In this document: piece after piece, positions 49,687 to 52,786 of the stretch | How positions within the stretch are numbered: the stretch's first letter is position 1 | How the letters are laid out: the number at the start of each line of letters is the position of its first letter | Assembly: GCA_007694125.1 (NCBI GenBank) | Contig: RECH01000196.1 | Span: forward strand, 1 to 55,425 | DNA: 55,425 nt | Reading direction: 5' to 3' | From: Leptolyngbya sp. DLM2.Bin15 | GTDB lineage: Bacteria; Cyanobacteriota; Cyanobacteriia; RECH01 | Notes under the pieces: generated by a model | What the model was told of the DNA's origin: nothing | The model's input: only the letters and a program-made list of their open reading frames with translations | Database searches by the model: none | Position numbers and translations under genes: made by a program

Positions 49687-50436
49687 ATGAAATTTCTGGT
49701 AATCAAGCATACGAGGTCGGAAGGCTTCGGTATTTATGAACAGTTTTGTCTCGATGCAGGCATCGACGTAGACTATGTTGAGCTAGCCAAGGGCGATCGC
49801 TTCCCCGATCCCCAACGCTACGATGGCCTATGGGTGATGGGCGGGCCGATGAATGTGGAAGATGTAGACCATTGTCCATGGATTGCCGATGAACTGGCGT
49901 TTATCCAAAGGGCGGTGCAGCAGGGGTTGCCCTACCTTGGCACCTGTTTAGGCGCGCAAATGCTAGCCGCAGCTATGGGGGGACAAGTGGGGTTTATGGC
50001 CAAGCCAGAGGTGGGCCTGTTGCCCATTACCCTCAATCCAGCCGGACAACAGCATCCTCTCCTCCGAGGGCTGGATGTTCAACCCAACGTCTTTCAATGG
50101 CATGGTCAGGGAGTGCAGCACCTGCCACCCGGGGCAACGGTGTTGGCCAGTTCGCCCCAGTGCCCCGTCCAGATCTATGCGGTGGGCGATCGCGCCTTTG
50201 GTCTACAGTTTCACAGTGAAGTTACCCCGGCGGTGATGGATCGCTGGGTCTCCATTCCCGACTATCGCCAAGAGCTAGAGCGATCGCTTGGTGTGGCAGG
50301 CCGGGAGGCATTTCATCAGGCCGTCTATGACCAGGCTGCCGCCACGGCCCGCGATGCCCATATCCTATTTGAAAATTTCGTGGCGATCGCTCAATCATCT
50401 AAAATTTCAGTCAAAGAGGTAGGTATTGAATGGTAG
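49687..50436 (+). CDS. Class I (GMP synthase-like) glutamine amidotransferase-fold protein
   Basis: 249 residues, single domain. The triad is Cys87 in YLGTCLGAQMLAAAMGG, with His176 and Glu178 in LQFHSEVTP. GLWVMGGPMNVEDVD supplies the oxyanion strand region. Relatives hydrolyse glutamine for a partner synthetase or cleave gamma-glutamyl compounds. The gene overlaps the next one by 7 nt (50430-50436), so coupling is likely. No synthetase domain is nearby, which makes a gamma-glutamyl hydrolase role worth considering (inference). Confidence 0.9.
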   Translation: MKFLVIKHTRSEGFGIYEQFCLDAGIDVDYVELAKGDRFPDPQRYDGLWVMGGPMNVEDVDHCPWIADELAFIQRAVQQGLPYLGTCLGAQMLAAAMGGQVGFMAKPEVGLLPITLNPAGQQHPLLRGLDVQPNVFQWHGQGVQHLPPGATVLASSPQCPVQIYAVGDRAFGLQFHSEVTPAVMDRWVSIPDYRQELERSLGVAGREAFHQAVYDQAAATARDAHILFENFVAIAQSSKISVKEVGIEW

Positions 50437-52283
50437 CCATCGTAGAATCAACCCCAGCTGAGGATCTGTCTGCACCGTTAGGACAGATAGTGGCAGAGTA
50501 TCGCATCGCTCCAGGAACAGCGATCGCCTACCCTGTCCAAGCGGGACAGTATCTGCAAATCTTAGATGTGCGAGGATCTCAATGTTCAGATTTCCTAGCC
50601 TTTGCGGCGGCGGATGTGAGCGAGGAGCTAGATAGCACGGTCACCCGCACCCTGAATAACTTAGCCATCCCCACCATTGGGTTACATGGTAAATACTTTT
50701 CCAACCGAATGCGGCCCTTGGTGGAGGTGATTCAGGATACCTGCGGGCGGCATGATAGCTTTGTGTTGGCCTGCACGACGAAATATTACGAAGATGCGGG
50801 TTACCCCGGTCATCCAAGCTGTAGCGATAATTTTAACGGTGTGCTGCAGCCCTACGGCATCGCGCCACGTCCCGGCTGGGCAGCTATAAATTTTTTCTTC
50901 AATACCACGGTGGATGATTCAGGGGCGATCGCTTCGGGAGAATCCTGGTCGCGGGCGGGGGACTATGTGCTGCTGCGGGCCCATGAAGATCTGCTCTGTG
51001 CTAGTTCGGCCTGCCCCGATGATATCGATCCTGCCAATGGCTGGCAGCCGACGGAGATCCATGTACGCATTTATGACCAAGGGGAATCGTTTCCAAAGGC
51101 CATTGGCCGTCGCGCCACGGCGGAGTCTGGCCTGCGCCTCACCCAACCCAGCGCGTTTACCCCCTGCATCCAGCGCCTCACCCAGGATCTCTCGGACTAC
51201 AACGGTTTTTGGGTGCCCAATCGCTTCACCCACCACGGCCTGCATGATGAATATTGGGCGCTGCGGGAGCGGGTGGTGTTGATGGATCTATCGGCCCTGC
51301 GCAAGTTTGAGATCGCTGGCGCAGATGCCCTACCGTTGCTCCAGCAGGTTTTCTCCCGCAATGTAGCAGCCTTTGCTGTGGGGCAGTCGGGCTATGGCTG
51401 TTTGCTCAATCGCCACGGCGGCATGGTGGATGATGGCATTGTGTTTCGCCTAGGAGAAACCGAGTTTCGCTATGTGGGCAACTGTGATAGTGATGGGGAT
51501 TACCTGCGGCGGGTGGCGGAGCAGTTGGGGCTACGGGTGACCCTGCAGCCGGTGAGCGATCGCTGGCATAATCTAGCGGTGCAGGGCCCCGAGTCGCGCC
51601 ATCTGCTGCGATCGCTCACGGAGTTTGCCCCCGCTAGTGGACTGAATGCCCTGGAAGACCTAGGCTATTTTCGATTTGCTGCGGCCACGATCGGTGGAAT
51701 CCCCGTGGTGATTTCCCGCACCGGCTATACGGGGGAACTGGGCTATGAACTCTTTGTCCATCCCCGCCACGGCGCGGATCTATGGCAGCGGTTGATGACC
51801 GCCGGGCAGCCCTTTGATCTCTTACCCATGGGTATGGCGGCCCTGGATCGCGCCCGCATTGAAGCCGGCCTGTTGGCACCGGGTATTGAATTTGATGAGC
51901 TGGTGTCTCCCTATCAAGCGGGCATTGGCTGGGCGGTGGCGATGAAAGCTAAAGCCGACTTTATCGGTCGGGCAGCGCTGGAACGGATCAAGCCTTATCC
52001 ACCTCGGGTGGCCGTGGGCCTGGTGCTGGAGGGCAATGAGGTGGCCTGTCAGGGGCAGTGTATTCATCCACCGGGCGATCGCGGTCGGATTGGCCAAGTC
52101 ACCAGCGCCACCTTTTCGCCCATCCTCAACCGCAGTATTGCCATGGCCCAGATTGTGCCGGACTATGCTGACCTCGGTACCCGCCTAGAGGTGGGTGTGA
52201 TGGACGGCATGAAGCGTCGCATGGCTGCTACTGTGGGGCCCTTAGCAGCGTTTGATCCCCAAAAAAGTCGAGTGCGGATATGA
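50430..52283 (+). CDS. DUF1989-GcvT fusion, laid out like trimethylamine N-oxide demethylase
   Basis: 617 residues. Residues about 20-225 are a DUF1989 (urea carboxylase-associated type) domain with Cys52, Cys105, His128/Cys131 in GHPSCSDNF and Cys195 in SACPDDID, a plausible metal site. Residues about 245-610 are a GcvT/aminomethyltransferase fold: VVLMDLSALRKFEIAG, ISRTGYTGELGYELFV, MAALDRARIEAGLL and a C-terminal barrel with GQVTSATFSPILNRSIAMA. GcvT domains bind tetrahydrofolate and receive one-carbon units. The same two-domain order is known in Tdm, which splits TMAO into dimethylamine and formaldehyde. Tdm is longer as I recall, so the substrate here may differ. Both neighbouring genes overlap it. 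Confidence 0.85.
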   Translation: MVAIVESTPAEDLSAPLGQIVAEYRIAPGTAIAYPVQAGQYLQILDVRGSQCSDFLAFAAADVSEELDSTVTRTLNNLAIPTIGLHGKYFSNRMRPLVEVIQDTCGRHDSFVLACTTKYYEDAGYPGHPSCSDNFNGVLQPYGIAPRPGWAAINFFFNTTVDDSGAIASGESWSRAGDYVLLRAHEDLLCASSACPDDIDPANGWQPTEIHVRIYDQGESFPKAIGRRATAESGLRLTQPSAFTPCIQRLTQDLSDYNGFWVPNRFTHHGLHDEYWALRERVVLMDLSALRKFEIAGADALPLLQQVFSRNVAAFAVGQSGYGCLLNRHGGMVDDGIVFRLGETEFRYVGNCDSDGDYLRRVAEQLGLRVTLQPVSDRWHNLAVQGPESRHLLRSLTEFAPASGLNALEDLGYFRFAAATIGGIPVVISRTGYTGELGYELFVHPRHGADLWQRLMTAGQPFDLLPMGMAALDRARIEAGLLAPGIEFDELVSPYQAGIGWAVAMKAKADFIGRAALERIKPYPPRVAVGLVLEGNEVACQGQCIHPPGDRGRIGQVTSATFSPILNRSIAMAQIVPDYADLGTRLEVGVMDGMKRRMAATVGPLAAFDPQKSRVRI

Positions 52284-52786
52284 CCTTGACCGTTGATTTA
52301 CATCCAACATCGTTGATTGATCTAGCAGGACAAGATGGTTTGCAGGGTGCGATCGCCCTCTTTGGTGCCCAGGTGAATCGTATTGCGCCGTTTCAGTCTA
52401 CATCTGTGCAGTGGCAAGGTGTATCCGGTAGTCTCTTGCGGCTTTGTGAAAACAACTTTCGCCTCCGCTGGCAGGGAGATGAGACCGCTATGATTGGGGC
52501 CCTGCAGTCGGCCGCTGGATCCATCTGGGTGCGATCGCTGCCTTGGTTAACGGCGATCGCCTACCCTGCCGCAATCCTAGACGACCTCGTCATCCCCATC
52601 ACCCCTACCCCACCCCATCAGCTTACTGGCCTACCTCTACACTGCGCTGCCGTTGGTCGGTTAGAGGGGCGATCGCTCTTGGTGTGGCACTACGGTCTAG
52701 ATGGTCAACCAGTGGTAGAACTCCAGATGGCGGCGGTCGATCAAGGGATAATCAGCCGCTTGCTGGGTGATGCTACCCATGGCTGA
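52280..52786 (+). CDS. Small protein of unknown function, third gene of the GcvT operon
   Basis: 168 residues, overlapping the previous stop by 4 nt (ATGA). It is soluble, without cysteine-rich or membrane segments apart from single Cys residues. Segments include SLIDLAGQDGLQGAIALFG, then GSLLRLCENNFRLRW, and a terminal VELQMAAVDQGIISRLLG. I do not recognise the family. Its size and place behind a GcvT-type gene recall the gamma subunit of sarcosine oxidase-like complexes, but this is by analogy only. Confidence 0.75.
   Translation: MTLTVDLHPTSLIDLAGQDGLQGAIALFGAQVNRIAPFQSTSVQWQGVSGSLLRLCENNFRLRWQGDETAMIGALQSAAGSIWVRSLPWLTAIAYPAAILDDLVIPITPTPPHQLTGLPLHCAAVGRLEGRSLLVWHYGLDGQPVVELQMAAVDQGIISRLLGDATHG

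Follow-up and report, generated by a model that had tools for sequence, protein, structure and literature searches.

A short trimethylamine N-oxide demethylase-like enzyme and its GcvT-fold partner as a conserved gene pair in cyanobacteria

The window analyzed here is a 55,425-nucleotide stretch of the cyanobacterium Leptolyngbya sp. DLM2.Bin15 (assembly GCA_007694125.1, contig RECH01000196.1, positions 1 to 55,425). Three open reading frames on its + strand encode a class I glutamine amidotransferase, a DUF1989-GcvT fusion protein and a small third protein, with an overlap of 7 nucleotides between the first two genes and 4 nucleotides between the last two. The fusion protein and the third protein probably make up the core of the system, a two-gene unit encoding a cyanobacterial trimethylamine N-oxide (TMAO) demethylase within a nitrogen-scavenging route. 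An earlier sequence-only reading had reported the three overlapping genes, and their coordinates, lengths and overlaps were all reproduced. Its treatment of them as one unit was not borne out, as the conserved unit is the pair and not the trio.

The middle protein (50430..52283, + strand, 617 residues) is strongly supported as a short variant of the TMAO demethylase Tdm. Pfam placed DUF1989 at residues 25-189 (2.7e-48), GCV_T at 253-502 (1.1e-63) and GCV_T_C at 526-608 (7.2e-14), and this DUF1989-GcvT order is common to the window enzyme and Tdm of Methylocella silvestris (9q59/9q5l/9q5a; NF053776). The closest PDB match was 9q59 (E 5.3e-186), with 48% identity across 602 aligned residues. The top NCBIfam model was TMAO demethylase NF053776 at 833.6 bits, which lies under the equivalog cut-off of 1100 bits. 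The alignment covers model positions 153-762 of 763, and the shortfall in score coincides with the missing start of the model, where Tdm carries an additional DUF1989-like domain of ~165 residues. While Proteobacterial relatives (L008-L011) are 781-802 residues long and possess this domain, it is missing in the window enzyme and in nearly all of its cyanobacterial relatives. The domain was reported as ubiquitous among Tdm homologues (PMC12560246), in a homologue set from which matches with a query cover of 90% or less were thrown out, so that short forms were invisible in that survey. One cyanobacterial enzyme (G022, L091:8553-10715) has ~100 extra N-terminal residues, the first segment of which is DUF1989-like with weak similarity (P 1e-3); the extension is possibly a remnant of the Tdm domain. 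The structure model of the window enzyme reached a mean predicted local distance difference test (pLDDT) score of 81, and Foldseek matched its DUF1989 half to 3siy/3oru and the other half to GcvT structures. As 9q59 was not among the top 50 Foldseek matches, the assignment to Tdm rests on sequence.

All Zn/Fe-site residues published for Tdm are kept in the window enzyme. The Zn ligands of Tdm are C263, C279 and C343, with H276, D346 and D198 as further site residues (PMC12560246). In the alignment to 9q59, the three cysteines correspond to window C115, C131 and C195, while Tdm H276, D346 and D198 correspond to H128, D198 and D54, and all six residues were invariant in 25 sequences. On the + strand, the Cys115 codon lies at 50772..50774, the stretch from His128 (Tdm His276, a proposed Fe ligand) to Cys131 at 50811..50822, and that from Cys195 to Asp198 (Tdm Asp346, Fe site) at 51012..51023. 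The sequence-only reading had listed Cys52, Cys105, His128, Cys131 and Cys195 as candidate ligands and had proposed an alignment with Tdm as a check. The site residues line up with Tdm in that alignment, and H128, C131 and C195 stand; Cys52 and Cys105 are unpublished as ligands, Cys105 was not invariant among the 25 sequences, and C115 had been overlooked. Together with the top matches to 9q59 and NF053776, this strongly supports the Tdm-like assignment made in that reading. At the folate site, window F339 corresponds to Tdm F487, and L472 occupies the position of an Arg in the Thermotoga T-protein. Missing folate-binding residues in the GcvT half had been named earlier as a point that would speak against a Tdm-like enzyme; the Arg is indeed absent, but the same losses are reported for Tdm (PMC12560246, where the Arg position is numbered L618, slightly off from the alignment used here), so that the two enzymes cannot be told apart by their folate sites.

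The distribution of the enzyme, the third protein, the TMA monooxygenase Tmm (TMA, trimethylamine) and a flavoprotein described below was surveyed in a common set of 390 cyanobacterial genomes. Within this set, the enzyme gene and the third gene each occurred in 46 genomes, and 44 genomes carry both. The exceptions to the pairing were G038, in which both genes survive as remnants, G278, whose draft assembly is 69% complete, and G222 and G286. The usual order is enzyme followed by partner, with an overlap of exactly 4 nucleotides in 26 of 37 same-strand pairs, a count that may include a few duplicate locus records. Because of the 44 shared genomes and the exact overlap, the arrangement is not due to chance. 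Both genes are also kept where they are separated: in G188 they lie ~355 kb from each other, and in G120 they sit on different contigs. In G038 (L105) fragments of both genes show that they decayed together. In the phylogenetic tree, the cyanobacterial enzymes form a single clade (support 100/100) opposite five Proteobacterial sequences including the Methylocella Tdm, with long branches between the two. The root of this tree is unresolved, so that it does not show whether cyanobacteria lost the N-terminal domain or Proteobacteria gained it.

The partner (52280..52786, + strand, 168 residues) is a truncated GcvT-fold protein with a SoxG-like shape that does not possess the C-terminal barrel. 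The sequence-only reading had described it as linked to the enzyme and unrecognized; the linkage holds, while the fold could be assigned by hhalign, AlphaFold2 and Foldseek. Pfam gave no match for the window protein itself and weak GCV_T matches in 5 of 33 partner members (best 0.0022). In hhalign, the partner aligned to the enzyme's GcvT half with P 1.4e-8, colinear over 155 columns, but covered only columns 43-208 of 376 of that profile and no GCV_T_C. It is thus not a full GcvT aminomethyltransferase, as the folate domain is incomplete and the barrel missing. No similarity to the DUF1989 profile was detected, and the idea that the partner is the detached N-terminal domain of Tdm was rejected (P 0.28 versus 1.4e-8 for the GcvT half). 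The AlphaFold2 model (pLDDT 93.1, predicted template modeling score 0.88) matched GcvT proteins first in Foldseek (1yx2, E 2.3e-9, template modeling (TM) score 0.78). The gamma chains of heterotetrameric sarcosine oxidase followed with TM scores of 0.66 (query) and 0.58 (target) for 1vrq_C and 0.67 and 0.60 for 2gag_C.

Like the partner, the gamma subunit (SoxG, PF04268) is small, has a GcvT fold and is encoded next to an enzyme with a GcvT domain. Membership in the SoxG family was nevertheless rejected: none of the 33 partner members matched PF04268, the partner's sequence is closer to the enzyme's own GcvT half, and the likeness is structural only. A comparison of the partner profile with a few SoxG sequences, some of which were taken in the wrong frame, was underpowered and returned no similarity. 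DmmD, likened here by description, is another GcvT-domain accessory protein of a methylated-amine pathway, but sits in the dmmDABC operon (PMC5520151), while the partner is coupled to a Tdm-like enzyme. Outside cyanobacteria, the partner was found neither in plasmids nor in 299 Pseudomonadota genomes, save for one match (0.0097) within a 1018-residue frame, and no such partner was found beside Proteobacterial Tdm. The partner is probably a non-catalytic structural subunit bound to the enzyme.

The gene context points to TMAO as the substrate. Bona fide Tmm (NF058570 above cut-off) occurred in nine genomes of the survey, all of which carry the enzyme (hypergeometric 2e-9, phylogeny ignored), and six of them have Tmm in the vicinity of the enzyme or partner gene. 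The formaldehyde-detoxifying S-(hydroxymethyl)glutathione dehydrogenase (FrmA) was identified nearby in L083, where it scored above the NCBIfam cut-off, and by clustering in L080. Common neighbors were type III glutamine synthetases (GS-III) (one above and one below the NCBIfam cut-off), and a primary-amine oxidase (Cu-amine oxidase) and an Amt-family transporter scored above and below their cut-offs, respectively. Beside the pair in L111 (L111:3-6480; G266:C517), a soxA-like gene, a small subunit of 190 residues, GS-III, an amidotransferase and a glutamate-synthase domain protein form a set that resembles the make-up of the N-methylglutamate pathway. A GntR-UTRA regulator often follows the partner gene, and the GntR repressor TmoR is known to control tmm (PMC13390433). 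The Proteobacterial relatives L008 and L010 adjoin genes resembling a TMAO ATP-binding cassette (ABC) transporter, judged by sequence starts alone.

The TMA cluster of Roseobacter contains tmm, tdm, dmmDABC, gmaS, mgs, mgd and amtB (PMC5520151, PMC13390433). Some cyanobacteria are similar in that Tmm, GmaS/GS-III-type, Amt and N-methylglutamate genes and a GntR-type regulator occur near the demethylase, whereas most do not carry Tmm but an acyl-CoA-dehydrogenase-fold flavoprotein, and Cu-amine oxidase is common. No TMA/TMAO catabolic genes were found in the immediate neighborhood of the window; this context was found in relatives (Tmm in 9/9 and L111). Elsewhere, the window genome carries a Cu-amine oxidase (C152), FrmA (C147) and GS-III, Amt and small membrane-protein genes (C280). 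The suggestion of a methylated-amine route new to cyanobacteria is thereby supported by context, namely Tmm, FrmA, N-methylglutamate genes, Amt and Cu-amine oxidase, and a literature search found no paper on such a route in cyanobacteria.

The flavoprotein, termed c4, is 475 residues long and shares at least 81% identity with the query across its class, one broken copy excepted. It occurred in 37 genomes, 34 of which carry the enzyme; the three others include G046, which retains an internally deleted enzyme remnant (L144:13144-13740) among intact neighbors, and G284, in which the enzyme copy is cut by the contig end. Among the 46 enzyme-bearing genomes, c4 was present in 34 and Tmm in nine, never both, and 34 of the 37 Tmm-less genomes have c4. 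Under random assignment the probability of this exclusion is 2e-7, but it corresponds to only 2-3 switches on the enzyme tree, so its real support is moderate. Acyl-CoA dehydrogenases use a Glu as catalytic residue; the corresponding column (YEGT motif of 8i4p) is Gly in 24 of 24 c4 members. PDB matches of c4 include the N-oxygenase DnmZ, although ordinary acyl-CoA dehydrogenases score higher. In the window genome, the c4 homologue (L142:9189-10697; G000:C243:11194-12603) adjoins a solute-binding-protein gene that neighbors the enzyme elsewhere. We propose c4 as a candidate alternative TMA N-oxygenase that would substitute for Tmm.

In the proposed route, Tmm would oxidize TMA to TMAO in some genomes, a step perhaps carried out by c4 in the others, including that of the window. 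The enzyme has either lost or never possessed the N-terminal DUF1989-like domain of Tdm; its DUF1989 half is expected to hold Zn at its metal site, probably accompanied by Fe as in Tdm, and to split TMAO into dimethylamine (DMA) and formaldehyde. The GcvT half would take up the formaldehyde and possibly hand it to tetrahydrofolate, while the partner, like the gamma subunit in heterotetrameric sarcosine oxidase, would have a structural, non-catalytic part in a complex with the enzyme. DMA would then be converted via methylamine to ammonium. The wider proposal of an undescribed cyanobacterial pathway, in which a two-component TMAO demethylase with a dedicated GcvT-fold subunit is joined in most genomes by c4 as a new TMA flavin monooxygenase replacing Tmm, is put forward tentatively, with somewhat less than even confidence.

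Several points weigh against a TMAO demethylase. The enzyme falls short of the NF053776 cut-off and is devoid of a domain reported to be ubiquitous in Tdm, the co-occurrence p-values ignore phylogeny, and the few c4/Tmm switches reduce the force of that exclusion. The window's own genome contains no Tmm and no homologue of the PF11927 DMA demethylase. DUF1989 proteins elsewhere include carboxyguanidine deiminases acting on other small nitrogen compounds, so the metal ligands alone leave the substrate unfixed. In Tmm-less genomes including that of the window, Tdm chemistry could be directed at a different tertiary amine N-oxide or another methylated nitrogen compound. In favor of this are the presence of Tmm in only nine of 46 enzyme-bearing genomes, the long branches separating the cyanobacterial clade from Proteobacterial Tdm, and the activities of DUF1989 relatives. 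Such a substrate is nonetheless rather unlikely, as the metal-site residues are identical to those of Tdm and the Tmm-linked and Tmm-less enzymes form one family, each ~65-74% identical to the window enzyme. Moreover, the G120 enzyme nests among Tmm-linked enzymes at a supported node, and Amt, GS-III, binding-protein and PhyH neighbors are found with both types.

The composition of the unit can also be read differently. The amidotransferase (49687..50436, + strand, 249 residues) is PRK07053-like, with a Pfam GATase match of 3.5e-20 and the motif positions Cys87-His176-Glu178 present. According to the sequence-only reading, it could process a gamma-glutamyl-amine in one unit with the other two proteins; in such a pathway unit, the third protein would be a further enzyme. 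The close relative G002 has an identical gene order with both overlaps, so that the 7-nucleotide overlap is found in both enzyme-bearing genomes of the genus (G000 and G002). It is confined to this genus, and almost no other cyanobacterial locus has the amidotransferase adjacent to the enzyme gene. Non-conserved order had been named as an argument against the trio, and as the order is kept for the enzyme and the third protein but broken for the amidotransferase, the trio is unsupported and the amidotransferase is outside the conserved core. In L086, L087 and L135, related GATase genes occur close to the enzyme gene, and the Proteobacterial L010 has one 1.3 kb downstream of it, which makes a looser link possible; GS-III genes are also common neighbors. 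With the third protein showing neither the GcvT C-terminal barrel nor a match to a catalytic family, a three-gene pathway unit is improbable. It is unlikely, though less so, that the partner is unrelated to catalysis and serves, for example, as a regulator or as a chaperone for assembly or metal loading. Its much faster evolution would suit such a role (29-43% identity outside the genus, versus 64-70% for the enzyme), but its nearest profile relative is the enzyme's own GcvT half, its fold is that of GcvT/SoxG, and translational coupling suits a stoichiometric subunit.

The use of TMAO and methylamines has been described mainly in Proteobacteria. Cyanobacteria are not treated in PMC5520151, PMC13390433 and PMC12560246, while the present distribution and gene context suggest that cyanobacteria with the short enzyme and its partner can use methylated amines as a scavenged nitrogen source. 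Should about one in eight cyanobacterial genomes prove able to draw nitrogen from TMAO, phototrophs would be direct consumers of methylated amines besides being beneficiaries of cross-feeding. The roles of the N-terminal and GcvT domains of Tdm are an open question in PMC12560246, for which the short enzyme with a detached GcvT-fold subunit offers a natural experiment. As a protein never found alongside Tmm, c4 is a concrete target for enzyme discovery.

Further genes were observed around the enzyme and in the window genome. A PhyH-family Fe/2-oxoglutarate dioxygenase adjoins the enzyme at many loci of both genome types (e.g., L082:16039-16944) and could be the missing DMA demethylase. The PF11927 heme demethylase, considered for the same step, was indecisive, occurring in 13 of 46 enzyme-bearing versus 4 of 34 other genomes. 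A small membrane protein of ~140 residues regularly adjoins the Amt-like transporter (L101:6714-7148, L109:7145-7570, L129:12535-12999); the one tested had no Pfam or NCBIfam match, and a similar start of an open reading frame follows Amt in the Pseudomonas locus L009. In the window genome (L130:3107-10691; G000:C376), GS-III has in its vicinity an ABC transporter as well as a Rieske oxygenase with weak likeness to the glycine betaine monooxygenase GbcA (133.6 bits versus a cut-off of 670).

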